Origin: Artemia franciscana
Lineage: Eukaryota; Arthropoda; Branchiopoda; Anostraca; Artemiidae
Reading direction: 5' to 3'
DNA: 64,000 nucleotides
Assembly: GCF_032884065.1 (NCBI RefSeq)
Contig: NC_088873.1
Coordinates: forward strand, 41,377,403-41,441,402
This document shows positions 12,410 through 52,262 of this stretch, piece by piece (the stretch's first letter is position 1; each line of letters starts with the position of its first letter). A program made the position numbers and the translations under genes. Below the pieces are notes generated by a model, which was given only the letters and a program-made list of their open reading frames with translations, did not search any database and was not told where the DNA came from.

Positions 12410-12417
12410 TAGAAGAT

Positions 12418-12454
<37 letters not shown>

Positions 12455-13269: not shown

Positions 13270-14030
13270 TAAAGTCTTAATGGCTCTGGTGGTGCAGCCA
13301 GTTGAGGAAGTTTAAATTTTCCTGAGGCGCAACACATTCCCATAGTTTCACCATTAAATTTCAAGGCCTAGCATTAGGGACAAATTTTAGACATAGTCCC
13401 GATTTGAACACATCTACTCAAGCTATAATCATCGAAAGGGCTGTACCTGAATGCCAGGCGATAATTTTGACGTTGCTCTTGTGATTCCTCGGCAAGCTTT
13501 CTTTTGGCATTATCTCTTTGAGCCGCAAGCCTGTTTTCACGTTGTTCTTGTGATTCCTCGGCATGATTTTTTTCTATAATTTCTCTTTGAGCCTCAAGCC
13601 TGTTTTCACGTTGTTCTTTTGATTTTTCAGCACGCTTCCTTTTGGCATTATCTTTTTGAGCCTGTTTTCACGTTGTTCTTGTGATTCCTCGGTACCATTT
13701 TTTTTTGGTAATTTCTCTTTGAGACACAAGCCTGTTTTCACGCTGTTCTTGTGATTCCTCAGCAAGCTTTCTTTTCTTACTTTCTCTATTAGCCACAAGC
13801 CTTTTGGCATTAAGTATTTGAGCAGCTTCCTCGGCTGTTTCTTCTGCCATTGTAGGATTTATAATAAAATTTCTCTTTGAATTAACTCTTTGAGCAGCAT
13901 CCTCGGCTGTTTCTTCTGCCATTGTAGGATTTATACTAAAATTTCTCTTTGAATTAACTCTTTGAGCAGCATCCTCGGCTGTTTCTTCTGCCATTTTAGG
14001 ATTTATACTGAAATTTCTCTTTAAATCACC
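13270..14030 (-). pseudogene. Helitron N-terminal region remnant (QRE repeats and GMCC motif)
   Basis: Minus-strand translation gives a tandem N-terminal repeat (MAEETAEDAAQRVNSKRNF twice, then EESQEQRENRL units at about 13500-13810). This is followed by ALKFNGETMGMCCASGKFKL and PQLAAPPEPL at about 13285-13365. The latter is the conserved Cys-containing segment that precedes the Rep domain in arthropod Helitron proteins. The frame then runs straight into the minisatellite (DRDTRNINDN), showing that Rep and the helicase core were deleted. Several stops and frameshifts are present. Confidence 0.7.
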
Positions 14031-14124
14031 CCTAATATACTTATAATGACGTCATATACAAAGCCTTATATACTTATAATGACGTCATATGCGTACAAAC
14101 AAACAAACATACAACTTATCTATA

Positions 14125-14683
14125 TCTATATATATAAAAATAAGTTGTCTGTGGATGGATGGATGGATGTGTCAGGTGACGTCACCTGAAAAAACTGGAT
14201 TAGGTGACGTCAAAACTGAAAAAACTAAAAAAAGGCAAAAACTACAAAAAAAAACTAAAAACTAATAAAAAAAATAAAAAAGCTAAAAAACTAAAAAAAC
14301 TATAAAGGTAAAAACCAATAAAAAACTAAAAAAAAAACTGAAAAAACTAAAAAAAGGCAAAAACTACAAAAAAAAACTAAAAACTAATAAAAAAAGTAAA
14401 AAAGCTAAAAAACTAAAAAAACTAAAAAAACTAAAAAAAGGTAAAAAACTAAAAAAAATAAAAAATAAAAAAAAACTAAAAAAAAGGAAAAAACTGAAAA
14501 ATAAGCTAAAATAAAGGTAAAAACCAATAAAAAACTAAAAAAAAAAGGAAAAAACTAATAAATGACGACACTCAAAGAGAAAGCGACCAGGACAAAAGGA
14601 ATGTTCGATTAGCAATCAACAAAGCACCGGGACACAGGGAGTATAAATGACGACCAGGACATAAGTAAAAAAAAAAAAAACTA
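14125..14683 (+). mobile_element. Helitron copy H9, 5' part only
   Basis: It begins TCTATATATATAAAAATAAG. It carries the CRE-like palindrome, the A-rich minisatellite and the start of the coding remnant, and is then broken by the 5' end of H10 at 14684. It mirrors H8b. Confidence 0.75.
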
Positions 14684-16155
14684 TCTATATATATAAAAAT
14701 AAGTTGTCTGTGGATCTGTGGATCGTGGATCAGGTGACGTCACCTGAAAAAACTGGATCAGGTGACATCAAAACTGAAAAAACTAAAAAAAGGCAAAAAC
14801 TACAAAAAAAACTAAAAACTAATAAAAAAAATAAAAAAGCTAAAAAACTAAATAAACTAAAAAAAGGCAAAAACTACAAAAAAAACTAAAAACTAATAAA
14901 AAAGCTAAAAAACTAAAAAAACTAAAAAAAAGGCAAAAACTACAAAAAAACTAAAAACTAATAAAAAAAATAAAAAAGCTAAAAAACTAAAAAAACTAAA
15001 AAAACTAAAAAAAGGTAAAAAACTAAAAAAACTAAAAACTAAAAAAAAACTAAAAAAGGTAAAAACTAAAAGAACTAAAAAAGAAAAAAATAAATGACGA
15101 CACTCAAAGAGAAAGCGACCAGGACAAAAGGAATGTTCGATTAGCAATCAACAAAGCACCGGGACACAGGGAGTATAAATGACGACCAGGACACAAGTAA
15201 AAAAAAAAATTAACAAAACTAAAAAGAAGGTAAAAACTACAAAAAAACTAAAAAGAAAAAAAAACTAAAAACTAATAAAAAAACTAAAAAATCTAAAAAT
15301 CTAAATAAACTAAAAAAGAAAAAAAAAGGAAAAAAATAAAGGAGAAAAACAAAACTAAAAAACGAATGTATATACAGACCGGTACACCGGGATACAAATG
15401 ACGACCGGGACACAGGGAATATAAATGACGACCGGGACACAGGGACACAACTACAACGGGGACACCGGGGGAAACAGGGGGATATAAATGACGACCGGGA
15501 CAAAAAAACTAAAAAGAAAAAAAAACTAAAAACTAATAAAAAAACTAAAAAATCTAAAAATCTAAATAAGCTAAAAAAGAAAAAAAAAGCAAAAAAATAA
15601 AGGAGAAAAACAAAACTAAAAAACGAATGTATATACAGACCGGGACACCGGGATACAAATGACGACCGGGACCCGGGACACAGGGAATATAAATGACGAC
15701 CGGGACACAGGGACACAACTACAACGGGGACACCGGGGGAAACAGGGGGATGTAAATGACGACCGGGACACCGGGACAGGGAATGGTCGATTAGCAATCA
15801 CCATCAACAAAGCTCAAGGGCAATCATTAGAATCATGAGGTATAGATCTGAATACAGATTGTTTTCCCATGGACCATTATATGTTGCATGTTCAAGAGTC
15901 GGTAAACCTGACAATCTATTTATATGCAAAGACAATGGGACAGCAAAGAATGTTGTATAGTCGCAAGTTTTACGTAGTTAAAACCATATATATATATCTA
16001 TCTATATTCACAGGTGGGACATAGGGACACAACTACAATGGCGCGTAACTATTATGGCGCGTAACGACTTACGCGCGCGGGGGGCTTGGGGGGGGCGCGA
16101 AGCGCCCCCACCAACTAGGTGTTGGGGTGGCGCGAAGCGCCACCCCAACAGCTAG
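14684..16155 (+). mobile_element. Helitron copy H10, complete ends
   Basis: The 5' TC lies at 14684-14685 and CTAG at 16152-16155 after the GC hairpin. The internal order is leader, A-rich block, fragment near 15130, two minisatellite blocks (about 15375-15500 and 15645-15780), helicase remnant (15782-15985) and 3' hairpin. It is the mirror image of H8a. Confidence 0.82.
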
Positions 16156-16157
16156 TA

Positions 16158-17018
16158 TCTATATATATAAAAATAAGTTGTCTGTCTGTCTGTGGATCAG
16201 GTGACGTCATGTTTCTGTGTTGACTGACGTCATGAAATTAGTTGTCGTCATTTTTGCTTTGACGGTGACGTCATTAACGGTATTTAAGACATTTGTTCAC
16301 GACACAAATGACGACCGAGACAGAGGGAATATAAGTGACGACCGGGAACCTCAAAGAGAAATTACAGACTGGGACACCCGGACACAAATCACGACCGGGA
16401 CACAGGGAATATAAATGACGACCGGGACACAGGGACACAACTACAACGGGGACGCCGGGGGCACAGGCGGGATATATAAATGACGACCGGGACACAGGGA
16501 TTGTTCGAATAGAAATTACAGACCGGGACACCGAGACACAAATGACGACCGGGACACCGGGACACAGTGAATATAAATGACGACCGGGACACTCAAAGAG
16601 AAATTACAAACTGGGACACCGGGACACAAATGACGACCGGGACACAGGGAATATAAATGACGACCGGGACACAGGGACACATCATTAGAATAATGAGGTA
16701 TAGATCTGAATACGGATTGTTTTTTCCCATGGACAATTATATGTTGCATGTTCAAGAGTCAGTAAACCTGACAATCTATTTATATGCACAGACAATGGGA
16801 CAGCGAAGAATGTTGTATATTCGCATGTTTTACGTAGTTAAAAACATATATTTATATCTATCTCTATTCACAGGTGGGACACAGGGACACAACTACAATG
16901 GCGCGTAACTAATATGGCGCGTAACGACTTTCGCGCGCGGGGGGGGGCTTGGGGGGGGGCGCGAAGCGCCCCACCAACTAGGTGTTGGGGTGGCGCGAAG
17001 CGCCACCCCAACAGCTAG
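16158..17018 (+). mobile_element. Helitron copy H11, complete ends, tandem to H10
   Basis: It starts with TC at 16158, two bases after the CTAG of H10, and ends with hairpin plus CTAG at 17015-17018. It lacks the A-rich block. After the leader (TGACGTCA sites, start of transcribed region) it goes straight into minisatellite (16300-16680), then a helicase remnant and the 3' tip. At ~860 bp it is the shortest complete copy. Confidence 0.82.
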
Positions 17019-17036
17019 TATATATATATATATATA

Positions 17037-18222
17037 CTAGCTGTTGGTGTTGGTGTGGAGGAATTACAACAACAGCGTGAAAGCAGGCTTGCGTCTCAAA
17101 GAGAAATCATCAAAAGAAAGTGTGCCGAGGAATCACAAGAGCAACCTGAAACAACCTGGACAGCGAGAGTCAAAACGTATCAAAACTGAAAATGATAGCG
17201 ATGATGATTGGGTTTCGGATTTTGATACTGATGATAAAAAAAACGCCGTTGAAAAGGATTATCGTTTCCCAGTTGCAACATCTTTTCCACATAAATAATA
17301 ATTTAGTGCTTCTGTTCAAAACATCGATCGAATTGATGCCTACTGATACGCAACTATCAACGAAGTGGCAATCGTTATGGTCAGTCATTTTTATATGACG
17401 TCAAAGGCTTTGTATATGACGTCATTATAAGTATATAAGAAGGCGTTTCAAAGAGAATTTTTATTAAACTCATCGTTGCTACGATGCCCTACAATATACT
17501 ATCATTTTTCGGGATGGAGCCAACGGCTATCATTTTAATATTAAATTGATAAATCCAGCCACTAACAAAGAAATGGATAAGAAATGAAGCGCAATGAAAT
17601 ATTATGCCTATAGATTAATGATTCGTCATTTATTACATTTATATATAATCCATCTTGGGATTAGATAAAACAGCTTTTACATCCTGGACAATCACCAGTT
17701 CATAGACATGACATTGCGGCCCGTGTCTTCCGGCAAAATTTGCTCTCCTTCATCTCCTACAGAGTTATGGGAGAAATACAAATCGCAAATGGCCAAGAAT
17801 ATACTCCACCAAATACAGCTAGAGAGGTCAGATATGACCTTGGACTTTACAACAGAAATTTATAACTGTGCTTATGAGTGAAGATTTGTGCTTATCGAGA
17901 CACCGGGACACAAATGACAAGCGGGACACAGATAATACAAATGACGACCGGGACACTCAAAGAGAAACTACAGACCGAGACACCAGGACACAAATGACGA
18001 CCGGGACACAGGGAATATAAATGACGACCGGGACACAAATGACGACCGGGACACAGGGAATATAAATGACGATCGGGACACAGGGACATAACTACAACGG
18101 GGGCGCTGGATGGGCACATGGACGACATATAAATGACGACGGGGACACACTTTCGATTAGCAATTACCATGAACAAAGCCCAGGGGCAATCATTAGAAAA
18201 ATGCGGTATAAACCTGAATACG
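17037..18222 (+). mobile_element. Helitron copy H12, rearranged, ends in the N gap
   Basis: After TA repeats and a CTAGCTGTTGGTGTTGG junction it holds N-terminal QRE-repeat codons (about 17060-17160), a Rep-region fragment (17570-17870), minisatellite (17890-18145) and the start of the helicase C-terminus (18147-18222) before the gap. The order matches a Helitron protein with two large internal deletions. Confidence 0.65.
17050..17870 (+). pseudogene. Helitron N-terminal and Rep-region remnants
   Basis: The first part reads EELQQQRESRLASQREIIKR. Further on, broken frames give INPATNKEMDKK and YAYRLMIR, then NPSWD, IKQLLHPGQSPVHRHDIAAR and VFRQNL. These match the start of the Helitron_like_N (Rep) domain in order. 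The HUH catalytic motif itself is not present. Stops and frameshifts are frequent. Confidence 0.65.
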
Positions 18223-22883: not shown

Positions 22884-24345
22884 ATCTTAACGAAAATGAC
22901 ACCATCATATTCAGCGTATCAGAGAACCCTAATGTCAAGCTCCTATCTACAAAAATGTGGAATTTTGTATTTTTTGCCGGAAGGCAGATCACGGATGCAT
23001 GTTTATTTGTTTGTTTGTTTGTTTTTTCCCCAGGGGTGATCGTATCGACCCAGTGGTCCTAGAATCTTGCGAGAGGGCTCATTCTAACGGAAATGAAAAG
23101 TTCTAGCGCCATTTTTAAATAACCCAAAAAATTGGAGGGCATCTAGGCCCCCTCCTACGTTAATATTTTCCCAGAGTCACCAGATCAAAATTCTGAGATA
23201 GCCATTTTATTCAGCGTAGTCAAAAAACCTTATAACTATGTCTTTGGGGACGACTTTCTCACCCACAGTACCCGTGGGAGGGGCTACAATTTACAAACTT
23301 TGACCAGTGCTTACATATAGTAATGGTTATTTGGAAGTGTACAGACAGTTTTCAGGGTGATTTTTAGGTTGTGGGGGGGGGGGGGGGGGTTTGAGGAGAG
23401 GGGGATATGTTGGAGGAAATTTTCTTTGAAGAATTTGTCATGGGGGAATACAATTTTCATGAAGGGAGCGCAGGATTTTCTAGCATTATTAAAAAAAACA
23501 ATGAAAAAATAAATATGAAAAGATTTTTTCAACTAAAAGTAAGGAGAAGCATTAAAACTTAATATGAACAGAAATTATTACGCATATGATGGACTCACCT
23601 CCTCCTAATACCTCGTTCTTTAAGTAATTTTAGTAATTTCAACTATTTATTCTACGGCTTTTGCGATTCAGGGGCCATTCTTAAGAAATTGGGACACAAT
23701 TTAAGCTTTAGTGTAAAGAGCGAGGTACTGACGAGGAGCTGAACCCCTTCATATACGTAATAGAAACATGAGATTACAGAAGTTCGTTACGTAATCTAAT
23801 TTGTAAGTTACGTATGTCTTTTACTAATAAAAACATTCGTATAAAAATTAAAAGTTCTAGTTGCCTTTTTAAGTGACCAAAAAATCGGAGGGCAACTAGG
23901 CCTCCTCCCCCGCTCTTTTTTTCTCAAAACCGTTCGATCAAAACTATGAGAAAGCCATTTAGCAAAAAAAAAAATGTAAATTTCGTTTTAATTATTCATC
24001 TGCGGAGAGCCAAAATCAAAACATGCATTGATTCAAAAACGTCCAGAAATTAAATAAAAAAAACAAGTTTGTTTTAACGGAAAGTAAGGAGTGACATTAA
24101 AAATTAAAACGAACAGAAATTACTTCGTAGATGGAAGGGGATGCTCCCTCATCAACGCCTCGCTCTTTACGCTAAAGTTTTTTACTGTTTTAAAAAGTAG
24201 AGTTAAGAGAAAGAGTCAAACCTTAGCGGAAAGAGCGGGGCGTTGATGAGGAAGCATTCCCTTTCATATACGAAGTAATTTCTGTTCTTTTTAAGTTTTA
24301 ATGTCGCTCCTTACTTTCCGTTAAAAAAACTTTTTTTTTATATTT
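22884..24345 (-). repeat. Dispersed repeat A, minus-strand copy (A2)
   Basis: It runs in the reverse order of the 35-41 kb copies. First comes the GAACCCTAATGTCAAGCTCC region, then the GGTCCTAGAATCTTGCGAG region, the C/G-rich centre, and the module with paired GAGCGGGGCGTTGATGAGG and CATCAACGCCTCGCTCTTTA arms at about 24140-24250. It ends near GCTCCTTACTTTCCGTTAA. The terminal hairpin end is missing, replaced by TA repeats. Confidence 0.8.
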
Positions 24346-26690
24346 AGTCTTACACAGCATAATTCTTGATTGCGTTCCGTTTAACTGAAAAGTATCGAAA
24401 AAAACATGAAACATTTGTTTATATTAATTTTGTCGGACAATATTAATTTTTTTACGTTTTTAAGAGTTAGAAAAACATTTTGGGAGGAGGGAGGTTCAAA
24501 CCCCCTAACCCCTTGGATACGGCCTTGTGTATTTACTGCTCTTGAATACATTCGGAAATAAAAGTTTGTTTTAAAGTTGTTTTTTTTTTTGTAACAACGA
24601 GAATCGGTGAATGCGGGCTCGTTCTTCAGTAAGTATTTTGAAAAATAAAACTACCCAGTTATTTTCCAATTATATACCCAATTATTGCTCGTTTATTGAG
24701 ATAAAATATATAGTGATATTTTGAATAATATCAGATATATGGTAATAATTTTGAATTCACGAAGTTAAAAATTGAAATTTTTTAAAATGAATTTTGTTTT
24801 CACTATAGTGCTAATTATACTCTTGTTTTTAGAATTTGTGGGGGGAGTCAGTCCTGCTTGTTTTAATTTTCTGTTCGTTTTTAGTTCAAAATTTCAAAAT
24901 TTTGAAATAGCCATTATGTTCAGCATCAAAACTGAAGCTTACGAGCAAAAAGTTTACAGAAGATAAGTTCTTCCAGTTATATCTGTTGTTCCTGTTTTTC
25001 AAGTATATGTCCCAGTTGTTCCAGTCAGTTAGCATTTCTAGAATAATAGCAATTAATAACAAAAAACATTAGGCTGGATTGCCCCATCTATATAAAATCC
25101 CTTTGAATTAAGCTGCCCTAACAAAGGAAAGAATTTTACCAAAGGAGATACTAGTCTAGCCTGCTATCAAGGCCTACTAAGAAGCACCAAATTATGGAAG
25201 AGCTAGACAGGATGTACAGAAAGTCATTCTTGGGATATACTTACATTAGAAGATTATGAAAAAAAAAGGTCAAGTCTTAAAAATATCAGATTTTTGACAA
25301 ACTCTCAACAGATACTAGGGGTGTGTTCCAGCTGACGGTTTTTCAGTAACTGCAGTTACTGCGCGGTAACTGCCCATTTCTAACTGCAGTAGAGCCAGTG
25401 GGAACGGCACAGTAAGCTGACTAGCAGTAGCGTCATTTTCGAATTAATGCACGTGTTTAAATTTAAGGGACAGTTTAATGCTGATTAGTATAATTTTTTT
25501 ATTCCTTCTGTTTCAGAGCATTTAGAGAGGTTCTAAGCTTAAACAGTAAAAATTAGAGTATCTTGTTCAATGCAATAAAAGGGGTTAAAAGTGCTATTCA
25601 AGAAATGTGCCAGGAAATTATGCTAGATATGAAGCTATGGAAACATTCCAAGATATAACCCAAGTGCTTTGTTTCTAACGTGATAACGTAATGGGACATA
25701 ATTTGGAAAACATCTCTTAGTGCTGTCAAATTTATATCTAGATTTTTCTAGTGGCTGGTTCTGATAATCTAATTTGCGTAATAAATGTATCTGAGTGTGT
25801 TTTCATTTATTTTGATGCATTTATTAGAAACCCTATGATTTAATGATTTCAAAACTTTTTAGTATATGCTAAGTTACGATTTTCTAAGTCGATTTTGTAC
25901 GAAAGTTTTATTTTAGTTTGATCTTTATGACTTGGAATACCTCTTACAAATAAAACAATAATAATTATATAATCCAGTAAAATATGATAATACTTGTATC
26001 CCCTAAGCTTAAATTACGAGGAAAGTAATTGTATAAACTATTCATGATTATTTTTTCTTTAAGTTTGAAATATTCAAATTCTTAAATTCAACATAATAAA
26101 ATACATTATCTAACTGAAGCTAAGTACTTTTTAATTTATAATTATTGTTTATAGTTTAGTTTATAATGATTGCAGAAGGAAATTCATGATTATCCCATGC
26201 TTTCATTTTTAATGCTAACAAATTTCAATTTTTCTGAGTAGCACGGAAAAATAATCTAGGTTTGCCTTATAGTATCTTTTCGAGATGAAAGTAATGTGAA
26301 GTCTTGTTAACATTTTTACTTTATAGGCATGTCCACCAAAGATTTTAGGTGCTTTAAAATTATTTTAATGTTAAAATAAAAAAAATTTATTTAATTATTT
26401 AATTATTATTTAATTATTATGAAATTATTTCACTATTTAATTATTTAACTATTAAAATTATTATAAAATTATTCAAAATTATTTAAACGTTATTTTTTGT
26501 GTCAAGCTGATTTTCTTCCTATATGCTTTTCATGAAATAAAGTAGTTGTCATGGCAACACAGAAAGGAGCTTTTTAATGAGCTTAAAACATATATGTACT
26601 TGATAGCTTAAGAAGGTTTAGCTTTCCTTTGAAGTTGTCTTGGGAATCTAACAGATTGTTAGTATTTGAATTTTTACGGACAAAAAGTGT
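24346..26690. other. Unannotated AT-rich intergenic DNA
   Basis: No gene is supported. A GC-richer patch at about 25310-25440 (GGGGTGTGTTCCAGCTGACG and several CTGCAGT words) could be a small MITE or a regulatory island; no terminal repeats are clear. AATTATTTAATT repeats lie at about 26380-26490. Confidence 0.45.
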
Positions 26691-35030: not shown

Positions 35031-35039
35031 TAAATTAAA

Positions 35040-36708
35040 CAGAAAAGCAAGTTTTTTGAAATGAAAGTAAGGAGCGACATTAACACTTAAAACGAAAAGA
35101 TACTACTCCGTATTTGAAAGGGGCTTTTCCTCCTCAAAGCCCCGCTCTTTGCGCTAAAGTTTGACTCTTTCACATTTTAAGACAGTAAATAACTTTAGCG
35201 TAAAGAGCGGGGCGTTGAGGAGGAAAAGCCCCTTTCAAATACGGAGTAATTTCTGTTCGTTTTAAGTTTTAATGTCACTCCTTACTTTCATTTAAAAAAA
35301 CTTGTTTTTTTTTGTTTAATTTCTGGACGTTGAATTAATGCATGGTTTGAAATCGGCTCTCCGCACATAAATAATTAAAACGAAAATTGCATATTAATTT
35401 TCTGGGACTAAATGGCTTTTTCATAGTTTTAATCGGAAGATTTTGAGAAAAAAGGAGAGAGGGAGGAGGCCTAGTTGCTCTCCAATTTTTTGATTACTTA
35501 AAAAGGCAACTATAACTTATAATTTTTTACGAACGTGTTCATATGTAAAAAATATACGTAACTTACGAATTAATTTACGTACTGAACTTCTATATTCGTA
35601 TGTTTTTATTGCGTATATGAGGGGGCTCACCCCTCGTCGATACCTCACTCTTTACATTAAAGCTTAAATTTGTCCCAATTCCTTAAGAATGACCCCTGAA
35701 TCATAAAGGCCGTAGAATAAATAGTTAAAATTACTAAAAATACTTAAGCGTAAAGAGCGAGGTATTACGAGGAGGTAAACCCATCATACGCGTAATAATT
35801 TCTGTTTGTTTTAAGTTTTAATGCTGCTTCTCACTTTCAGTAGAAAAAACTTTTCATATTTATCTTTTCATTTTTTTTAAATAATGCTAGAAAATCCTGC
35901 CCCCCCTCCATTGAAAGTCTCTTCCCTCATGAGAAGTTCCTCCATGGAAAGATTCTGCCCGGTAACCCTCCCCCTCAAATATCCCCCCAAACCAAAAAAT
36001 CCCCCTCAAAACGTCTGTACACTTCTCAGTAACCATTACTATATTTAAACACAAGTCAAAGTTTGTAACTTGCAGCCCCTCCCACGGGGACTGCGGGGGA
36101 GTAAGTCGTCCTCAAAGACATAGTTATTGGGTTTTTCGACTATGGTGAATAAAATGGCTATCTCAGAATTTTTATCCGGTGACTTTAGGGAAAAAATTAG
36201 CGTGGGAGGGGGCCTAGGTGCCCTCCAATTTTTTGGTCCCTTAAAAAGGGCACTAGAACTCAATTTCCATTAGAATGAGCCCTTTCGCGACATTCTAGGA
36301 CCATTGATTCGATAGGATCACCCCTGGGAAAAAAAAAAAAAAAATAAACAAGCATCCCTGATTTGTCTTCTGGCAAAAAATGCGAAATTCCACATTTTTG
36401 TAGATAGGGGCTTGAAACTACTACAATAGGGTTCTCTGATACGCTGAATCTGTTGATGTGATTTTCGTTAAGATCGTATGACTTTTAGGGGTGTTTCCCC
36501 CTATTTTCTAAAATGAGGCAAATTTTCTCAGGCGCGTAACTTTTGATGGGTAAGACTAATCTTGATGAAATTTATATGTTTAAAATCAGCATTAAAATGC
36601 CATTTTTTTATGTAACTATTGGTATCAAAATTCCGTTTTTTAGAGTTTCGGTTACTATTGAGCCTGGTCGCTCCTTACTACAGTTCGTTACCACGAACTG
36701 TTTAACAG
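35040..36708 (+). mobile_element. Repeat A, near-complete copy A3
   Basis: The left end has GAAAGTAAGGAGCGACATTA. The right end has GGTCGCTCCTTACTACAG followed by the hairpin ACAGTTCGT-TACC-ACGAACTGT. Inside lie a ~210-bp palindromic module (arms about 35072-35160 and 35195-35283), a second palindromic module with GATACCTCACTCTTTACA against AAGAGCGAGGTATTACGAGG (about 35640-35770), and a C-rich segment. No protein-coding capacity is seen, so it is non-autonomous. Confidence 0.75.
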
Positions 36709-37330: not shown

Positions 37331-39051
37331 ATAATTAAACAAAAAAAACAAGTTTTTTTTAAATGAAAGTAAGGAGCGACATTAAAACTTAAAATGAACA
37401 AAAATTACTCCGTATATGAAAGGGGCTTTTCCTCCTCAATGCCCCGCTCTTTACGCAAAAGTTTGACTCTTTCTCTTAACTCTACATTTTAAAACAGTAA
37501 AAAACTTTAGCGTAAAGAGCGGGGCGTTGAGGAGGAAAAGCCCCTTTCATATAAGGAGTAATTTTTGTTCGTTTTAAGTTTTGATGTCGCTCCTTACTTT
37601 CATTTAAAAAAACTTGTTTTTTTTGTTTAATTTCTGGACGTTTTTTAATTAATGCCTTTTTGTTTTATCTTGGCTCTCCACGCATAAATAATTAAAACGA
37701 AACTTGCATATTAATTTTTTTGGGGGGGGGCTAAATGGCTTTTTCATAGTTTTAATCGGAAGATTTTGAAAAAAAAGAGCGAGAGAGGAGGCCTAGTTGC
37801 CCTCCAATGTTTTGATTACTTAAAAAGGCAACTATAACTTTTAATTTTTTACGAACGTTTTCATAAGTAAAAAATATACGTAACTTACGAACTAACTTAC
37901 GTAGCGAACTTCTATATTCGTATGTTTTATTGCGTATATTAGGGGGCTCACCCCTCGTCGATACCTCGCTCTTTACACTAAAGCTGAAATTTTGTCCCAA
38001 TTCCTTAAGAATGACCCCTGAATCACAAAGGCCGTAGAATAAATAGTTGAAATTATTAAAAATGCTTTAGCGTAAAGAGCGAGGTATTACGAGGAGGTAA
38101 CCCCCTCATATGCGTAATAATTTCTGCTCCTTTTAAGTTTTAATGCTGCTCCTCACTTTCAGTAGAAAAAACTTTTCATATTTATTTTTTCATTGTTTTT
38201 TTTTAAATAATGCTAGAAAATCCAAATCCTGCGCCCCCTCCATTCAAAGTCTCTTCCCCAAAAAACGTTCCTCCATTGAAAGATCCTCCCACGTAACCCC
38301 CCCTTAAACTCTCCCCCCAAACCAAAATGGTCCCCCTGAAAACGTCTGCACACTTCCCAATAACAATTACTATAAGTAAACACAGGTCAAAGTTTGTAAC
38401 TTACAGCCCCTCCCGCGGCGACTGCGGTGGAGTAAGTCGTCCCCAAAGACATAGTTATTAGGTTATTCGACTATGGTGAAAAAATGGCTATTACAGAATT
38501 TCGATCCGGTGACTTTGGGGAAAAATGAGCGTGGGAGGGGGCCTAGGTACCCTCTAATTTTTGGGCACTTAAAAAGGGAACTAGAACTTTTAATTTCCGT
38601 TAGAATGAGCCCTTTTGCGACATTCTAGGACCACTGAGTCGATACGATCACCGCTGGGGAAAAAACAACAAAAAACAAAAAAACAAATAAACACGCATCC
38701 GTGATCTGCCTTGTGGCAAAAAATGCAAAATTCCACATTTTTGTAGATAGGAGCTCGAAACTTCTACAGTAGGGTTCTCTGATACGCTGAATCTGATGGT
38801 GTGTTTTTCGTTAAGATTCCATGACTTTTAGGGGGTGTTTCCCCCTATTTTCTAAAATGAGGCAAATCTTCTATGGCTCGTAACTTTTGACAGGTAAGAC
38901 TAATGTTGATGAAACTTATATATTTAAAATCAGCATTAAAATGCGATTCTTTTGATGTAACTATTGGCATAAAAATTCCATTTTTTAGAGTTTTGGTTAC
39001 TATTGAGCCGGGTCGCTCCTTACTACAGTTCGTTACCACGAACTGTTTGAT
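37331..39051 (+). mobile_element. Repeat A, complete copy A4
   Basis: It begins AACAAAAAAAACAAGTTTTT, then GAAAGTAAGGAGCGAC, and ends with CGCTCCTTACTACAGTTCG and the ACGAACTGTTTGA terminus. Insertion into a tandem repeat defines both ends to within a few bases, giving a length of about 1.72 kb. The module order matches A3 and A5. Confidence 0.82.
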
Positions 39052-39374
39052 TTAAAGAACATGTAGTCTAACTAAAACATGGGGCATTATACCCAAATAT
39101 AAAACGTATTTATTTCTTACTTTCTCTATCACTGATCAATTTTGCATTTGGAGGAATTTCCCACGGGAGGGGGTTATTGGGTGGAATTTTCCGCGGGAGT
39201 TATTTTCTGGGGAGGGGTATTTTCCACTGGGGTGTGTTTTGCAGAGTAAACACCAGCTCCCAATGTAAATATGAAGCCCTCAAATGATGCAGCTTAGTTA
39301 TATGATAAAATTTAAAGCAAATTAGAATATTAATATTTTATTTTGTGTGGACTACGTGCATCTTTCTCTGATTG
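39052..39374. other. Short spacer between repeat A copies
   Basis: It starts with the tail of the interrupted tandem repeat. It then has a G-rich stretch (CCACGGGAGGGGGTTATTGG, GGGGAGGGGTATTTTCCACT) resembling the reverse complement of the C-rich minisatellite at 29515. No gene. Confidence 0.5.
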
Positions 39375-41125
39375 AATAAAAAAAACTAGTTTTTTTTTAA
39401 CTGAAAGTAAGGAGCGATATTAAAACTTGAAACGAACAGAAATTACTCCGTATGTGAAATGGGTGTTCCCCTCCGCAATCTCTCGCTCTTTACGCTAAAG
39501 TTTTTAATTGTTTTAAAAAGTATAATTGTGGCAAAGAGTCAAACCTTAGCGTAAAGAGCGAGGGATTGCTGATGGGACAACCCATTTCACATACGGAGTA
39601 ATTTCTGTTCGTTTCAAGTTTTAATATCGCTCCTTACTTTCAGTCAAAAAAACTAGTTTTTTTTATTTAATTTCTGAACGTTTTTGAATTAATGCATGTT
39701 TGATTTTGGCTCTCCGCACATAAATTATTAAAAATGAAATTTGCATATTAATTCTTTTTTTGGCTAAATGGCTTTCTCTTAGTTTTGATCAGACGATTTT
39801 GAGAAATAAGGGGTGGGGAAGGAGGCGTAGTTGCACTCCAATTTTTGGTTACTTAAAAAGGCAACTAGAATTTTTAATTTTTAACGAACGATTTTATTAG
39901 TAAAAAAATATACGTAACTTAAGAATTAATTTACGTAACAAACTTTTATATTCTTATATTTTTATTATGTATATGAGGGGTTTTTTCCCCTCGTTAATAC
40001 CTCGTTCTTTACTCTAAATCTTAAGTTTTGTCCCAATTCTTTAAGAATGACCCCTGAATCAGAAAGGCCGTAGAATAAATAGTTGAAATTACTTAAAAAA
40101 TTTTTAGCATAAAGAGTGAAGTATTTATCTCCTCCTAAATACCTCGCTCTTTATGCTAAAGTATTTTTAGAACCCCTCATATGCGTAATAATCTCTGTTC
40201 TTTTTAAGTTTTGATGCTTCTCGTTACTTTCAATTGAAAAAACTTTTTCATGTTTATATTTTCATTGTTTGTTTTTTTATAGTAATGCTAGAAAGTCCTG
40301 CGCCCTTTTGATTGAATTTTTCTTCCCCCATGAAATATTCCTCCAAGAAAAGATCCTCCCATATAACCCCCTCCCCTGAATCCCACACCCAAACCAAAAA
40401 AATCCCCCTGATAACGTCGGTACACTTCCCAGTAACCATTACTGTATGTAAACATTGGCCAAAGTTTGTAACTTGCAGCCCCTCTCCCAGGGACTGCGGG
40501 GGGTACGTCATCCCCAAAGACATAGTTATTATGGTTTTAGACTATGCGGAACAAAATGGCTATCTCAAAATTTTGATCCGTTGACTTTAGTAAAAAAATG
40601 AGCGTGGGAGGGGGCCTAGATGCCCTCCAATTTTTTTGGTCACTTAAAAAGGGCACTAGAACTTTTCATTTCCGTTAGAATGAGCCCTCTTGCGACATTC
40701 TAGGACCACTTGGTCGATACGATGACCCCTGGGAAAAAAAAACAAAACAAAAAAACAAATAAACACGCACCCGTGATTTGTCTTCTGGCAAAAAATACGA
40801 AATTCCACATTTTTGTAGATTGGACCTTGAAATTTTTTCTTTAGGGTTCTCTGATACGCTGAATCCGATGGTGCGATTTTCGTTAAGATCCTATGACTTT
40901 TAGGGGGTGTTACTCCCTATTTTCTAAAATAAGGCAAATTTTCTCAGGCTCGTAACTTCTGATGACAAAGACTAAATTTGATGAAACTTATATATTTAAA
41001 ATCAGCATAAAAATCTGATTCTTTTGATATATCTTTTATCATTGAAATTCCGTTTTTTAGAGTTTCGTTTACTATTGAGCCGGGTCGCTCCTTACTACAG
41101 TTCGTTACCACTAACTGTTTGATGA
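39375..41125 (+). mobile_element. Repeat A, near-complete copy A5
   Basis: The left end is ACTAGTTTTTTTTTAACTGA then AAGTAAGGAGCGA. The right end is GGTCGCTCCTTACTACAG with hairpin (one arm base changed, CACTAACTG). The first palindromic module uses GCGAGGGATTGCTGATGGG instead of the GGGGCG version of A3 and A4, so it belongs to a distinct subfamily. Confidence 0.78.
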
Positions 41126-41344: not shown

Positions 41345-44023
41345 CTAAGGACGAATTGCAATTGCCAGACTACTAGGCCCAAGCGACCCCAAAAATTCAG
41401 AACGACGTTTCGTCACAGCAGCAATCGGATCTGTGATACCGAACCTTGCAGACATCTTGGAATTTTTAACCCACGGTGGGGTATTTAAAAGAAATTTTGC
41501 ATATTTGTAAAAAAGTGATCGAAGGTTTCTTTTATCGCTAACACTAAATATATGCCAAAACGGTGATAAAGCCAGAAAGTGTGGGATCACCAGTGCATTA
41601 TATAGCCTAGCTCGAATTTGTCGATTATATTTCGCTTTAGTTGAAGATAGCGCCCCGTAAGCCTTACGTGCCTCCTCTGCGAAATTACTTATTTGGCGAG
41701 CACGTGTAGATGCCATGTTATGACCTATAGGCATTCCTAAGTACATTATGGAGTCAGACAGTGGAACCTCTTGAGCACCAAATTTGACAGCAAGATCTAT
41801 ACAATCTGCATTTCTCCTATTGAAAGCAACAATCTCGCTTTTACTTGCATTAAAAGATAGGCCTATCTCTCTATAAGCATCATCTAGAATCTGAAAATTT
41901 TCTTCAATACGAGACAAACATCTACTTAAATTAAAAATATCATCTGCGTAATTAAGTAATGTTACATCCAAACCTCGGAAAATGCAGCTCATTTGCACTA
42001 ACTTTTGGGCCTCGAGAACACTATTATTATACAACCGGGGTGACGAAATTGCACCCTGCCTAATGCCCTTTCTAACCGGAATAGCATTTGGTAATACAAT
42101 CGGCCCGTTAGGAGACGGGACTTTAACTTGGACTCGAAGCTTCTTATACATATCCCGAAAAGGCAAAATAACCGATCGGTCCACACCACGTTTATGAGCA
42201 GACACTAATAACTGGGGATGTATCCCAGAATCAAAAGCACGTCTAACATCGTGACTCGCTAGAATAAGGGATTCATTCAGTTCATCAGCTTCTATTAATA
42301 TATTAGCAAGAATATAATGGACGTGCTCGCGACCAACACCTTTTTTAAATCCGAACTGATTATCGGGGGTAGAACATTGAAAAGCAATATGATCTATAAC
42401 TAGCAATTCCATAAGCTTACATAAAACCGGCGAAACAGTTATAGGGCGGTAAGATACGCATTCAGACGGATTTTTCCCTTTTTTCAAAATAGGTGTAATT
42501 ACTCCAGTACCAAAAACGTCGGGAACGAGACCAGAATTAAAGATAATTTGGAATAGAAGCTCTAAATGACTCAGGAGACCAGCAGTACCATGTACAAGAT
42601 GCAACCCACACAACTTGTCGACACCTTTCGATTGTTTCTTTTTTAATTTTGAAATTGCACGAATCAGATTAGGAACAGTTACTATGTAGCCAACACCAGA
42701 ACTAGGCAATTCCATGAACTTATCAAGTTCGACTTCATATTTATCTTCAAGATCTTGTTCGGGTGGAGAGAACTCAGAAGTAAAGTGGGACACCCAATCT
42801 TGCTCAGAGATCACAGGTTCGACACTATTCTGATCACCATTACGTTTAAGAAATCTCCACACAGCATTTGGATCATTACTTATCAATTGACTATGTTGAT
42901 CGATCACTTCACATTTATGCTTAGACAAAATCTTAGCAAATCTGCGTTTGCTGAACAGCCGAACTTCATTTACAACACCTGATTTCGGACGACCACACTC
43001 GTTCCAGAGCCTAAGCCAAAATTTTGCACGACCACATGCTTCACTTAGAGCAGGGTTTTCGGACCACTTTGGAATTTCCGTTCCCACTCGGACTTTACGA
43101 ATGGGGACCGCAGCGGCCTCGGCAGATAACAGTGCGTGAGATATTTCACTACAGTAGATGTTTAGTAGCAGCTGTTTCTCTTCATCTTGAATACATACAC
43201 TCTGCTGTAGTAATTGGAACGGCACTTTAATCTTTGTGAGAATCTCATCCAATACGTAATGATAAGTAGCCAGGTCAATTTTACTCCAATTAGTTTTGAT
43301 TTTCCACTTCTTTTCATTAGTTGGGGGGTTAGGAGAGGCAGGAATTACTCGAAAAGTGTTTATAATTGGAAAGTGATCAGACGCGCTTACGCTCAGATCT
43401 ACGTGCGAATTGCCGCAAGCTGGAGATTGGATGGAACTTAACATGAAGTCGAGAGATGAAGTCGAGCCTGAGTTATGGATATAAGTAAAACACAGATCAT
43501 TGTTAGCAAGACGAAGACCGTCACAGGAAGATAGGAGGATCTGTGCTCGAGCGTTAGACTCATCAGTCAAGTCACAGTTCACGTCACCAGCGACTATACA
43601 TTCAAGGCCCTGGCTAGAACAGCTGCCCACCGAACTCGATAGCTTACTGCAGGCTTCACTAAATTTTTTTTCTGATTTACTGTCTCTGTAGTCTGTTGGC
43701 ATGTACACAGAGTGGATAACAGTTTTGTGCACCTTAACAGCAACAAAAAAGTCTGAAGATTTATACAGAATGGGATTTAACCTGCTGCTAACAAGAATGG
43801 CGATTCCACCGGACGGCCTTCCCCTGCCCGATGACTTTGCAGGAGTAGCAAATACTTTGACGCCATCGTTTAGCTCAAGCAGACTAACGGCTTGATTCGA
43901 GAGGAAGTGTTCCTGCACACAGAGTACATCGTTATAACATAACAATCCTTCTAACAGTGGCATTTTATCAACCACTCCACCATTTAAGTTCCATGAAACA
44001 TCCCGTATAGAATCACCGATCAT
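41345..44023 (-). CDS. LINE ORF2: endonuclease-reverse transcriptase
   Basis: This 892-residue protein should nick the target and reverse-transcribe the element RNA. The N-terminal apurinic-type endonuclease (about 8-226) shows SWNLNG, CVQEH (E38), AGDVNCD (about 145-151), SSLDFML (about 189-195) and ASDHFPI (H217). The RT domain (about 505-740) shows GVITPILKKGKNPSECVSYR, NQFGFKKG, HDVRRAFDS, RKGIRQGAISSPRLYN and the catalytic YADD (692-695). The C-terminus has YLGMPIGH and a thumb-like region; no RNase H is evident. All expected catalytic residues are present. The start ATG overlaps the ORF1 stop in ATGA, suggesting termination-reinitiation. The clade is uncertain; the architecture fits the jockey/CR1/I superfamily broadly. 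Confidence 0.92.
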   Translation of the reverse strand: MIGDSIRDVSWNLNGGVVDKMPLLEGLLCYNDVLCVQEHFLSNQAVSLLELNDGVKVFATPAKSSGRGRPSGGIAILVSSRLNPILYKSSDFFVAVKVHKTVIHSVYMPTDYRDSKSEKKFSEACSKLSSSVGSCSSQGLECIVAGDVNCDLTDESNARAQILLSSCDGLRLANNDLCFTYIHNSGSTSSLDFMLSSIQSPACGNSHVDLSVSASDHFPIINTFRVIPASPNPPTNEKKWKIKTNWSKIDLATYHYVLDEILTKIKVPFQLLQQSVCIQDEEKQLLLNIYCSEISHALLSAEAAAVPIRKVRVGTEIPKWSENPALSEACGRAKFWLRLWNECGRPKSGVVNEVRLFSKRRFAKILSKHKCEVIDQHSQLISNDPNAVWRFLKRNGDQNSVEPVISEQDWVSHFTSEFSPPEQDLEDKYEVELDKFMELPSSGVGYIVTVPNLIRAISKLKKKQSKGVDKLCGLHLVHGTAGLLSHLELLFQIIFNSGLVPDVFGTGVITPILKKGKNPSECVSYRPITVSPVLCKLMELLVIDHIAFQCSTPDNQFGFKKGVGREHVHYILANILIEADELNESLILASHDVRRAFDSGIHPQLLVSAHKRGVDRSVILPFRDMYKKLRVQVKVPSPNGPIVLPNAIPVRKGIRQGAISSPRLYNNSVLEAQKLVQMSCIFRGLDVTLLNYADDIFNLSRCLSRIEENFQILDDAYREIGLSFNASKSEIVAFNRRNADCIDLAVKFGAQEVPLSDSIMYLGMPIGHNMASTRARQISNFAEEARKAYGALSSTKAKYNRQIRARLYNALVIPHFLALSPFWHIFSVSDKRNLRSLFYKYAKFLLNTPPWVKNSKMSARFGITDPIAAVTKRRSEFLGSLGPSSLAIAIRP

Positions 44024-45114
44024 TGTTTAGAAATTAGCTTCTGAGCTACTGGACATTGGAAGCTGTAGCACGGGTGTCGAGAAGAACCACACAGAGCGCA
44101 TTTGGGGGCATTTTGGCATGGATTGTCCCGAGAGCTGGAATGATCTCCACCGCACTTTGAACATTTCGGGGGATCTACACAAGATTTTGCTGCATGTCCG
44201 TAGGACTGACAGTTGTAGCACTGCATCGGTAAGAATTTAAATTCTGTAATGGGTAGTCGCTCGTAACCAAAAATGGGCGGAGAGTTCATTGCGTTAAAGA
44301 GATGAGCTTTGCTTTCAAACTGTAATTTGAATGACCGAGTACTACCAATTTGTACGGCCTTAACACAGTTCGGTACAACTGAGCGCAGTTCGTCATCTGA
44401 AGTTTCAGTGGGAACGTGGCGGATTATTCCGAAGAAAGCGGGAGTTTTTACTTTAACACTTATAGTTGAGTCACTTTTACCCACTGCCTCAGCCAGGGAC
44501 TCGGCAGCATTCTTGTTGTTCAAGACTACTCTCCATTCAGATTTCCTAGGTTTCAGCTCCACAATGTTCGAACTAGTATCACCACATACTCTGTCCAAAT
44601 AGGATTTCCGAGCGCTAGGGTTCGAAAGATCTTTCGGGGGATTCTTCAAAACAACCGCATATGACAGTTTCGACATGATCGTGTTGGTTTCTGCCGCAGG
44701 CATAGCAGAGACAGAAGGAGAGGGATTAGAATCCACGTAACTATCGAACTTAGCACACAATTCGTTTACTTTCCGGGTTAGGGTAGCCGTCACTTCTCCC
44801 GGGATTATCGGAACTTCATCAGGTTCGAAAATCACAAACCGCGGCAACGAGATATTTTTATCTTCACAAACCCGAAATACTTTTAATATGTCCAGGATAT
44901 CATCGGTGTTCTTCGATCGCGCAGTAACACGTGTGGTAATTCCTGCTAGGGGCCACAATAACTCCTTCGCCATTGCAATTGCTTCCTCTGAGAAAAACTC
45001 GACTGCTTTTTTCGCTATATCCTCCGAGCGATTACCAGCTTTTATCGCACGGAAAGCATAATTCAGTAACGCATTCCAAACCAATTTCTCATTACTCCCC
45101 ATCGCAACAGCCAC
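44020..45114 (-). CDS. LINE ORF1: gag-like protein with CCHC zinc knuckles
   Basis: This 364-residue protein probably binds the element RNA. Near the C-terminus are a canonical knuckle CYNCQSYGHAAKSC (C-x2-C-x4-H-x4-C) and two further Cys/His clusters (CSKCGGDHSSSRDNPC and CALCGSSRHPCYSFQC). Upstream (about 150-290) is a region like the RRM-type fold of such ORF1 proteins (VVLNNKNAAESLAEAVGK, FGIIRHVPTETSDDELRSVV). The frame is intact from ATG to the ATGA overlap with ORF2. Confidence 0.88.
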   Translation of the reverse strand: MAVAMGSNEKLVWNALLNYAFRAIKAGNRSEDIAKKAVEFFSEEAIAMAKELLWPLAGITTRVTARSKNTDDILDILKVFRVCEDKNISLPRFVIFEPDEVPIIPGEVTATLTRKVNELCAKFDSYVDSNPSPSVSAMPAAETNTIMSKLSYAVVLKNPPKDLSNPSARKSYLDRVCGDTSSNIVELKPRKSEWRVVLNNKNAAESLAEAVGKSDSTISVKVKTPAFFGIIRHVPTETSDDELRSVVPNCVKAVQIGSTRSFKLQFESKAHLFNAMNSPPIFGYERLPITEFKFLPMQCYNCQSYGHAAKSCVDPPKCSKCGGDHSSSRDNPCQNAPKCALCGSSRHPCYSFQCPVAQKLISKQ

Positions 45115-48179: not shown

Positions 48180-48735
48180 GCAAGGTTTCACTTTCATTTG
48201 ATCCCGTGACATTGGGGAAAACTGTGCGTAGGAGGGGACCTAGGTGCCCTCCAATTTTTTGGTCACTTAAAAAACACTATAACTTTGATTTCCGCTAGAA
48301 AGAACCCTCTCTCGACATTCTAGGACCACTGGGTCGATGCGATCACCTCTGGAAAAAAACAGCAAACAAACAAATAAACACGCATCTGTCATCTCTCTTC
48401 TGGCAAACAATACAAAATTCTACATTTTTGTAGATAGGAGCTTGAAACTTCTACAGTAGGGTTCTCTGACACGCTGAATCTGATGATGTGATTTTTTTTA
48501 GGGTTCATTGACTTTTAGGGGGTGTTTCCCCCTATTTTCTAAAATAAGGCAAATTTTTTCAGGCTCATAACTTTTGATGGGTAAAACTAAACTTGATGAA
48601 ATTTATATATTTAAAATCAGCATTAAAATGCGATTGTTTTGATGTAACTCTTTGTATCAAAATTCCATTTTTTAGAGTTTCGGTTACTATTGAGCCGGAT
48701 CGCTCCTTACTACAGTTCGTTACCACGAACTTTTG
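48180..48735 (+). repeat. Repeat A, 3' third only (A6)
   Basis: It starts within the GATCCCGTGACATTGGGG segment and continues to the CGCTCCTTACTACAGTTCG terminus with ACGAAC. The left two thirds are absent. Confidence 0.8.
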
Positions 48736-48949
48736 ATACAATGCTGACTTCTGACTCTTTTAGCTTTGCAAAATGTTTGTTTTAGCCAGCTCCAAAAAAA
48801 GAATCGATATAAATGTGTTTAGAATTATGACTGAAATTAGTCTAATTTCACAGAACGCCAGTGCTACTTGTGGGACATTTATCTCTACATCAGCATGATG
48901 TACGAAATTTCTGCTGAGGACAGAATAAAGTGAATTTAAACAAAATGTG

Positions 48950-51565
48950 TAAATTGTTCTCACAATTTATAAATTTTGTGTGCACGTATAAGCGGTACCA
49001 ACCCATTTTCTTTTTCTGTTGTAATCGGTTTTGTCTTGCTGGACTAGGAGACCGAGCTTTGCTTGTTAAGGGAATTATAGACATAAAAACGATATTCAGT
49101 GTAACCCCCTCCTGAAATGTATTCCCCCATATCCTGATTTACACAAGAAGAACTTTTGTGTAGTTTTATATAATTTTTTTTTTTAAACCAAGATACAAAG
49201 GGAAAGGTAATTTCAAAACCCTATGAGTTTGAAAACTCTTCAGACTCTGAAGTCTAAAACTCTGAAAGTTTGAAAACTTTCAAACTAATTAAAATTAAAA
49301 TGGAATAGTTGTGGGCACTAAGTCATGGCTAATAGTAGGAAAAGTCAGGACGGATAGTCCGATTGAGTGAGAGGCAAATCTGGCATACGCCCATATTAGG
49401 ATTGTATAAAAATGATGTTTGTTCATTTGTTAATATATGTGTCTATCTTTTATCCGTCGATGCGTCATTCCTAAGGCAGTAGAACTAAGGAGAATAGTCA
49501 TAGAGCTAAGATAGTCATAGAATCTATAGTTTTCCAACTGTTTGGTTCAATGGCACGTGTAAACGACAGGTAAAGTAACGACAGTAAAGTAACGTAATGA
49601 CGGTAAAGTAACGACGGGTAAACGGCTGGAGTATAGTTTTCCCTTATTGGACCAATACTTACGTTATACTTACCAATACAATACGTTACGTTGGACCAAT
49701 ACGTTATTTTTTAGAAAGGCATACCTGCATATGTAACTTATTCTTACAATTTAGAAATTTTGTGTGCACGTATAAGCGGTACCAACCCATTTTCTTTTTC
49801 TGTTGTAATTGGTTTTGTCTTGCTGGACTAGGAGACCGAGCTTTGCTTGTTAAAGGAATTATAAACATAAAAAGGATATTCAGTGTAACCCCCTCCTGAA
49901 ATGTATTCCCCCATATCCTGATTTGCACAAGAAGAACTTTTGTGTAGTTTTATATAATTTTTTTTTTTTTTTTAAACCAAGATACAAAGGGAAAGGTAAT
50001 TTCAAAACACTATGAGTTTGAAAACTCTTCAGACTCTGAAGTCTAAAACTCTGAAAGTTTGAAAACTTTCAAACTAATTAAAATTAAAATGGAATAGTTG
50101 TGGGCATTAAGTCATGGCTAATAGTAGGAAAAGTCAGGACGGATAGTCCGATTGAGTGAGAGGCAAATCTGGCATACGCCCATATTAGGATTGTATAAAA
50201 ATGATGTTTGTTCATTTGTTAATATATGTGTCTATCTTTTATCCGTCGATGCGTCATTCCTAAGGCAGTAGAACTAAGGAGAATAGTCATAGAGCTAAGA
50301 TAGTCATAGAATCTATAGTTTTCCAACTGTTTGGTTCAATGGCACGTGTAAACGACAGCTAAAGTAACGACAGTAAAGTAACGTAATGACGGTAAAGTAA
50401 CGACGGGTAAACGGCGGGAGTATAGTTTTCCCTTATTGGACCAATACTTACGTTATACTTACCAATACAATACGTTACGTTGGACCAATACGTTATTTTT
50501 TAGAAAGGCATACCTGCATATGTAACTTATTCTTACAATTTAGAAATTTTGTGTGCAAGTATAAGCGGTACCAACCCATTTTCTTTTTCTGTTGTAATCG
50601 GTTTTGTCTTGCTGGACTAGGAGACCGAGCTTTGCTTGTTAAAGGAATTATAAACATAAAAACGATATTCAGTGTAACCCCCTCCTGAAATGTATTCCCC
50701 CATATCCTGATTTACACAAGAAGAACTTTTGTGTAGTTTTATATAATTTTTTTTTTAAACCAAGATACAAAGGGAAAGGTAATTTCAAAACCCTATGAGT
50801 TTGAAAACTCTTCAGACTCTGAAGTCTAAAACTCTGAAAGTTTGAAAACTTTCAAACTAATTAAAATTAAAATGGAATAGTTGTGGGCATTAAGTCATGG
50901 CTAATAGTAGGAAAAGTCAGGACGAATAGTCCGATTGAGTGAGAGGCAAATCTGGCATACGCCCATATTAGGATTGTATAAAAATGATGTTTGTTCATTT
51001 GTTAATATATGTGTCTATCTTTTATCCGTCGATGCGTCATTCCTAAGGCAGTAGAACTAAGGAGAATAGTCATAGAGCTAAGATAGTCATAGAATCTATA
51101 GTTTTCCAACTGTTTGGTTCAATGGCACGTGTAAACGACAGGTAAAGTAACGACAGTAAAGTAACGTAATGACGGTAAAGTAACGACGGGTAAACGGCGG
51201 GAGTATAGTTTTCCCTTATTGGACCAATACTTACGTTATACTTACCAATACAATACGTTACGTTGGACCAATACGTTATTTTTTAGAAAGGCATACCTGC
51301 ATATGTAACTTATTCTTACAATTTAGAAATTTTGTGTGCACGTATAAGCGGTACCAACCCATTTTCTTTTTCTATTGTTATCAATTTTATCATGCTGGAA
51401 TAGGAGACCGAGCTTTGCTTGTTAAAGGAATTATAAACATAAAAAACGGTATTCAGTGTAACCCCATTCTGAAATGTATACCCCCCTATACCCTGATTTA
51501 AACAAGAAAAACTCTTGTGCAGTTTTTATAAAATTCTTTTTTTTAACAAAGATACAAAGAAAAAG
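48950..51565. repeat. 784-bp tandem repeat, about 3.4 copies
   Basis: The word TTTTGTGTGCA recurs with starts offset at 48978, 49762, 50551 and 51334, giving spacings of 784, 789 and 783. Copies are almost identical; most differences are T-run lengths and single bases. The fourth copy diverges after about 51,380 and ends near 51,560. Each unit contains a short hairpin region (AACTCTTCAGACTCTGAAGT and GTTTGAAAACTTTCAAAC) and small GTAAAGTAACGAC sub-repeats. No coding frame. Confidence 0.95.
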
Positions 51566-52039
51566 GTAGTTTTCAAACTATAGGAGTCAGTTTTGCCTTC
51601 CAATTGGCATCTATTAACTAGTTTTAGTTAATTTAAGGTTTCTGCCGCAAGGATGCCAAGATTTGTTCAGAATTTGTGGATATTCTTTGTCAAACAATGC
51701 CCAACACATAAATTAATAATTCTAACTTTACTTTCGAATATTTTCAAATTCGAGATACTATCGCTATTTAAATGTAGGGAATATTTCACAATATAATATT
51801 ACAGAATCTGCGGTAATCCTTTGATTTATCCTGTATCTTTACTTACACTGCGCTTTTGCGCTGCCCATGGTTTTTGTTTTGGATTTACGTGGCCCACTGA
51901 TTCCAATGCTATATATTCATATAAATTGGCACACACAAATAAATCAATTTAATAAAAAATCATAAACAATATTTCAATAAATCATGTATATTAAAAGTTT
52001 GGTACAACAAATTAAATCTTACAGAATCAAATTCCATTT
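51566..52039. other. Unannotated intron DNA
   Basis: Nothing recognised. Confidence 0.45.
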
Positions 52040-52262
52040 GATGGAAAGCTAGGAGCGACCTGGCTCAATAGTAACCGAAACTCTTTTTTTTATTATCTTA
52101 AAAAATAGAGTTGTGAGAAACAGTCAAACTTTAGCGTAAAGAACGAGGTGTTGAGAAGGGGACAACCCCTTTCATATACGTAATAATTCCTGTTCGTTTT
52201 AAGTTTTAATGTCGCTCCTTATTTGACGTAAAAAAAAACTTTTTTTTATTTAATATAATGAA
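52040..52262. repeat. Rearranged repeat A miniature (A7)
   Basis: An inverted right end (GGAGCGACCTGGCTCAATAG) is joined directly to half of the palindromic module (AGCGTAAAGAACGAGGTGTT to TTAATGTCGCTCCTTATT). The result is a ~220-bp mini-element with inverted GGAGCGAC/GTCGCTCC ends. Confidence 0.7.

Follow-up and report, generated by a model that had tools for sequence, protein, structure and literature searches.

Repeat A, a family of related sequences scattered through a 64,000-nucleotide stretch of the Artemia franciscana genome (RefSeq assembly GCF_032884065.1, contig NC_088873.1, forward strand, positions 41,377,403 to 41,441,402; hereafter the window), raises the question of what kind of transposable element it is and how it is copied. 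The reading we favour, with little better than even confidence, is that of a non-autonomous rolling-circle-type transposon in the Helentron/Helitron2 style, whose 5' palindrome has its two arms matched during copying and its loop sometimes inverted.

By using nhmmer, we identified five long copies in the window: A1 (22,884–24,347, minus strand), whose 3' end is lost at an (AT)n run; A3 (35,035–36,705, plus strand), whose loop is partly deleted; A4 (37,335–39,050, plus strand), a whole element of 1716 bp running from 5' TTAAAC to TTTGA 3'; A5 (39,372–41,122, plus strand); and A6 (48,197–48,736, plus strand), which is 5'-truncated. Fragments of repeat A lie at six more places (around 18.8, 30.3, 32.2, 52.1, 62.5, and 63.8 kb), so that the figure of at least eight copies given in the first-pass annotation is reached only when fragments are counted. 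In full-length alignment A4 matches A3 at 88% and A5 at 81%, and no long coding frame was found within the copies. All five share a 13-bp subterminal inverted repeat, which in A4 reads AGTAAGGAGCGAC at the left (37,368–37,380, plus strand) and GTCGCTCCTTACT at the right (39,012–39,024, plus strand), with a second copy within the inner arm of the 5' palindrome (37,586–37,598, plus strand); the left repeat of A5, AGTAAGGAGCGAT, has one mismatch. The 3' hairpin, with a 9-bp stem and a 4-nt loop, is kept in A3–A6 and lies in A4 4 nt from the 3' end (ACAGTTCGT-TACC-ACGAACTGT; 39,025–39,046, plus strand). With up to one mismatch GTCGCTCCTTACT has 13 matches in the window versus 0.04 expected, and with up to three mismatches the 3' hairpin has 4 versus 0 expected, which bears out the shared subterminal inverted repeat and 3' hairpin that had been proposed. 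A short relative of 227 bp, relative B (52,027–52,253, minus strand), consists of a left arm and loop fused directly to a right end; its 3' hairpin (TTCCAT-CAA-ATGGAA) is unlike that of repeat A, and the TTTGA end is common to both.

In the genome as a whole (1,270,528,402 bases in 6,468 contigs), a 35-mer right end has at least 48,084 matches with up to three mismatches, a lower bound on right ends rather than a number of full copies, and the reversed control has none. The suggestion that the family may be undescribed is only partly right: Helitrons are already counted as 8.81% of the A. franciscana genome, and the accessible text of that genome paper describes no families of them (PMC11492255). 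A search of Rfam with repeat A gave no match, none of the viral contigs matched, and none of its sequence words was found in the open-licence literature.

Most of 33 left ends open with TTAAAT and are preceded by an A (30/33), a set in which a few members are fragments instead of genuine element ends (e.g., L011m2872, L013p3228, L015p3443, and L025p3958). Most of 40 right ends close with CTGTTTGA, and a T follows in 29. The preferred site of repeat A is A|T, not TT, with a 1-bp ambiguity left by the letters common to both ends. The position of A4, inside a tandem repeat whose array it interrupts, provides an empty site: the joined A4 flanks match two units of the window as well as L026:4759-4878, with an ungapped junction and gaps elsewhere. 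A4 was inserted between A and T, and no 2-bp or longer duplication is seen (this is one insertion, for which a 1-bp duplication is possible). The first-pass annotation had seen no sizeable duplication at A4 and had proposed a test for insertion into TT; the lack of duplication was confirmed at this site, but the target is A|T and the left end has to be moved outward by 33 bp. The copies share these 33 further bases outward of the left 13-bp repeat, and the 5' subterminal repeat of A4 is therefore 33 nt inside the end of the element (37,335 vs. 37,368). A head-to-tail arrangement was seen twice elsewhere (L010 and L019), one copy following another at distances of 2 and 4 nt.

The presence of long inverted arms at one end might suggest a MITE-like derivative of a DDE transposon, an origin to which we give hardly any credence: both arms belong to the left end, the two ends of the element are unlike, target duplication is absent at A4, and DDE MITEs are marked by a target-site duplication and by terminal inverted repeats that match each other, neither of which we found. 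Canonical Helitrons share with repeat A the insertion at A|T without duplication (with the 1-bp ambiguity in repeat A), but they begin with 5' TC and end with CTRR 3', whereas repeat A runs from TTAAAT to TTGA. The same holds for the canonical Helitron L089, which has the A|T target by which canonical Helitrons are defined, but in which the hairpin is followed by CTAG|T. Because its ends differ, its 3' end bears a hairpin, its target is not duplicated, and some copies are head-to-tail neighbours, repeat A would be best read as the passenger of a rolling-circle enzyme, which would insert it between A and T without target duplication, from the 5' TTAAAT end to the 3' hairpin and TTGA.

Repeat A works like a HINE/Helitron2 passenger, but we do not class it among the HINEs. 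As far as the accessible descriptions go, HINE/DINE-1 elements have a subterminal inverted repeat of 12–15 bp (13 bp in repeat A); again like repeat A, they carry a short palindrome near the 3' end, occur in high copy number, do not duplicate the target, and lack coding capacity (PMC4067079). In the same kind of partial account, HINEs insert at TT or T-rich sites and mite HINEs have their 5' repeat 2–4 nt from the 5' end, whereas the site of repeat A is A|T and its repeat is 33 nt inside. The label "Helentron-like" thus stands for architecture, lack of duplication, and very high copy number, and fails for the target site and the position of the 5' repeat. From what the available text on oyster HINEs indicates, they carry a subTIR with a 7–12 bp inverted repeat, as opposed to the ~125-bp arms and 43-nt loop of repeat A (PMC7492417); by analogy, the palindrome of repeat A may be an enlarged form of this paired 5' repeat. 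The Helitron2 elements of Fusarium (FoHeli), in the portion of their description at hand, have an asymmetric terminal inverted repeat and hairpins at both termini, as does repeat A, and target sites that vary by group, FoHeli1/2 inserting between TNAT and T (PMC5148889); repeat A differs from what is reported there in the size of its 5' hairpin, its arm concordance, and its loop inversion. Finally, the Proto-Helentron of Phytophthora infestans is portrayed, in the accessible pages, as starting with TT and inserting between A and T without duplication, like repeat A, but it is ~14 kb long, coding, and ends in 3' CTAG (PMC4067079).

The left end of repeat A is a hairpin, a palindrome of ~296 nt with a stem of ~125 pairs and a loop of 43 nt. 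In A4 it extends from the first base of the element (37,335–37,630, plus strand; stem ~125 bp), with a type I loop in the orientation that we call flip (37,462–37,504, plus strand); the loop of A5, of type II, is inverted relative to that of A4, or flop (39,501–39,543, plus strand). The palindrome begins at base 1 in three folded copies and can be aligned in 21. Folded as DNA, that of A4 reaches −136.4 kcal/mol, versus a mean of −21.0 and a lowest value of −30.7 in 50 mononucleotide shuffles. The first-pass annotation, which saw a hairpin at the right end only, had missed this far larger one at the left, and the 5' hairpin of repeat A is also far larger than those in the compared literature, as far as its accessible text describes them. 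Scanning also yielded two palindromes without an adjoining element body (L011:2512-2810 and L042:877-1172); by eye, the 3' part of repeat A follows the one in L042.

In 47 copies, the two arms of a copy are 0.947 identical versus 0.871 between copies, and none of 10,000 permutations reaches the observed mean. Smaller samples agree (20 copies, 0.948 vs. 0.889; 28 copies, some of which are fragments rather than true element ends, 0.924 vs. 0.866). The compared copies came from 0.4–8.3 Mb of C1 and from the window, the fetched loci being picked by an exact 35-mer right end, and the arm tests left out the A/T run and columns less than 80% filled (96 of 190 columns used in the 47-copy test). Two inner modules served as controls and showed no concordance: the degenerate palindrome P2 (37,927–38,190 in A4, plus strand; n = 16), for which the observed mean was reached in 3,134 of 10,000 permutations, and the direct repeat D1 (37,733–37,847, plus strand; partner D2 at 38,482–38,596; n = 17), for which it was reached in 7,628. 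In 35 of 44 copies, the own partner of an arm is also more similar to it than the five closest copies on the body tree are on average (Wilcoxon p = 7.9e-6); against the single nearest body relative it is higher in 25 copies, lower in 13, and tied in 6, and it is strictly the best among all arms in 10 of 47 copies (20 of 47 counting ties). One aberrant copy (L013m935, 34/95 mismatches) was kept in the 47-copy permutation and branch-length tests and excluded from the nearest-relative and shared-mismatch counts. The arms of repeat A thus appear to become matched during the copying of source elements.

The changes are moreover coordinated across the stem, since in an independent count on 21 copies both sides changed in 36 of 125 pairs, compared with 13.4 (sd 2.1) after shuffling and 6–12 when the pairing was slid. 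Selection on source copies for complementary arms would also yield such covariation, through compensating mutations instead of arm-to-arm copying, and HINEs, according to the available text on oyster elements, are known to carry a subterminal repeat close to the 5' end that is paired (PMC7492417). We nevertheless consider selection rather unlikely, as the two-step route should pass uncompensated mismatches on to relatives, which seldom have them in common (14/186 mismatches are shared with a near relative), and as it leaves the loop inversion described below unexplained. For arm-to-arm copying, on the other hand, these 14 shared mismatches imply that correction is incomplete.

When the arms were matched can be judged from the ages of the copies, taken as terminal branch lengths in a tree of the element body, built from the 45 of 47 copies with a body longer than 900 bases. 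Arm mismatches rise with branch length (Spearman 0.69, n = 45), and of the five copies on the shortest branches three have none. They are mostly private, 184 of 220 carrying one base that is absent from the five nearest relatives. In 20 sister pairs, picked by eye and with some copies used in several pairs, differences fall on one arm in 103 cases, on both arms in 29, and are of another kind in 8; over all pairs, the mean differences are 8.37 one-arm, 6.85 both-arm, and 0.96 other. The relationship is not strictly proportional. Regression of mismatch on branch length over the 45 copies gives a slope of 0.64 and an intercept of 0.023 (standard error 0.011) instead of a slope of 2 and an intercept of 0, although for branches below 0.02 (14 copies only) the mean arm difference, 0.0279, is twice the mean branch, 0.0135. 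L026 has no mismatch although its branch measures 0.030, and A1 and L005, whose branches are the longest of all, have only 9/96 and 7/94 mismatches; these last two branches may be inflated by foreign sequence within the presumed body. The pattern fits arms that were matched at insertion and decayed later, the both-arm changes coming from the source lineage, and acting as an imperfect clock.

These observations bear on two further explanations. Inverted repeats of such length (~125-bp arms) can recombine, and host recombination or gene conversion between the arms of resident chromosomal copies, independent of transposition, would account for concordance and loop inversion together. It is improbable in our view, because resident copies decay: mismatches grow with age and the chosen sisters differ mostly on one arm. 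The absence of any effect on the inner repeats points the same way but is a weak control, as their lower identity may itself block recombination. The other explanation is technical, namely that short-read polishing evened out the arms of young copies, and the published A. franciscana assembly was indeed polished by Pilon from short reads, as stated in the accessible part of its description (PMC11492255). That both-arm changes follow groups of related copies (judged by eye), that arm mismatches are commoner in older copies, and that a polisher would not be expected to invert a 43-nt loop make such an artefact most improbable.

The loop of A4 matches that of A5 well only once it is reverse-complemented, and both orientations recur in the family. 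Relative to the body, the type I loops of the 47 copies comprise 25 flip, 1 flop, and 1 unclear, and those of type II 16 flop, 3 flip, and 1 with both (L024). This replaces an earlier count (24 flip, 16 flop, and 3 unclear out of 43), which included bodiless palindromes whose orientation is undecidable. By parsimony, the body tree requires at least four changes of orientation (43 labelled rows of 45). Loop type likewise requires four changes, so whole ends may have been swapped between lineages. Because orientation is mostly inherited within related groups, flipping appears to be occasional. In L024 (410-745), we observed a palindrome in which the two orientations of the loop meet head to head, as though copying had continued round the turn; this head-to-head loop has no exact match in the genome, L024 itself being one base different, while the edges of normal type II loops have 4,406 exact matches.

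Terminal hairpins of parvoviruses consist of a palindrome whose arms are corrected against each other and whose loop exists as flip and flop. Repeat A resembles them in its terminal palindrome, its flip/flop loop, and the presumed correction of its arms, but it is chromosomal and non-coding, has a palindrome at one end only, and has a loop orientation that is mostly inherited within related copies. A bolder version of our reading, which we hold as tentative and less probable than not, is that repeat A has a hairpin telomere at its 5' end, one arm of which is rewritten from the other in every round of copying while the loop is sometimes flipped, as in parvovirus terminal resolution. If this were true, the hairpin telomere would connect Helitron-type replication directly with the rolling-hairpin kind, and every copy would hold a clock like that of LTRs. 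Two observations count against our main reading: an obligate rolling-hairpin cycle would invert the loop more often than is seen, and relative B has no inner arm, so that the full palindrome may not be required for movement.

For the rolling-circle passenger with arms matched during copying, which remains our preferred reading, the steps would be as follows. Copying of the source element would displace or expose one strand, on which the 5' palindrome could fold upon itself. Arm mismatches would then be erased as one arm was copied or repaired from the other, by repair or self-primed copying, and the new copy would arrive with matched arms that subsequently decay independently. A rare resolution of the folded end would leave the loop inverted. 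The single-strand intermediate, the enzyme, and the correction during transposition are all postulated from the genomic copies. Our searches of the open-licence literature brought up no Helitron-like element for which concordant arms or an inverted loop are described. The DNA intermediate has been approached experimentally in few elements, among them, to go by the accessible parts of the two reports, the reconstructed bat Helitron (PMC5876387) and Fusarium FoHeli (PMC5148889). Some 48,000 right ends, with recorded arm matching and loop flips, would thus represent natural evidence on this intermediate, and arm mismatches would allow one insertion to be dated from a single copy.

A search for an autonomous Rep/Hel partner sharing the ends of repeat A had been proposed. 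Among 150 of 7,435 candidates that were scored for the Helitron N-terminal domain, no Rep/helicase element with these ends was found. The canonical Helitron examined closely (L084, L089) has a Rep motif with GLPH, a Rep/PIF1 protein of 1,579 aa, and a CTAG 3' end, and was ruled out on its ends. An OTU-bearing Helentron was likewise set aside, with only two OTU matches. A candidate Helentron-type family has 149 matches to a 25-residue motif query, the first 19 at 60–68% identity, and frames of up to 2,701 aa, whose ends were reckoned from frame length. The stretches behind these frames are 98% identical over 400 bases in two copies. Behind one frame (C6) there is a fragment of the repeat A body only, with no repeat A end. 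In another copy (C76), a reverse repeat A right end lies ~10 nt past the end of similarity and a second repeat A hairpin follows; we read this right end as a neighbouring insertion, not as the family's own end. The 5' side of the family was seen in part, with 100 N. On this partial evidence, neither the canonical Helitron nor the candidate Helentron-type family is the partner. Behind the frames of three members of the latter (L092, L093, and L094), a palindrome, GTTGAAA-CTAT-TTTCAAC, was seen by eye.

Copies of repeat A at first seemed to form domains of uniform orientation, with 90 plus and 10 minus among the right ends listed over 8 Mb of C1. Among 100 listed of the 876 exact matches of a reverse-complement 59-mer, the strands are mixed (C1, 19 plus and 27 minus; C2, 33 and 21), and strand runs among these listed matches indicate weak clustering in C1 (z = −2.56, 46 sites) and none in C2 (z = −0.19, 54 sites). 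Because these strands are mixed and C1:1687074 was missing from the first listing, we attribute the orientation skew to a listing artefact and reject the domains.

The remainder of the window contains other repeats and frames. The first 18 kb (320–17,867) match many stretches of L089, a 10-kb locus in which a canonical Helitron lies, and have tandem arrays inside, and a 570-aa frame within them (4,435–6,147, minus strand) has glycosyltransferase and ricin-type lectin domains. Two adjoining long frames follow A5 (41,345–45,114, minus strand), of which the 892-aa one has the endonuclease and reverse transcriptase domains of a non-LTR retrotransposon and the smaller one matched no Pfam family. 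Beyond A6, a tandem repeat of ~786 bp extends over ~3.4 units (48,945–51,587), with ~96% likeness between the longest copies.
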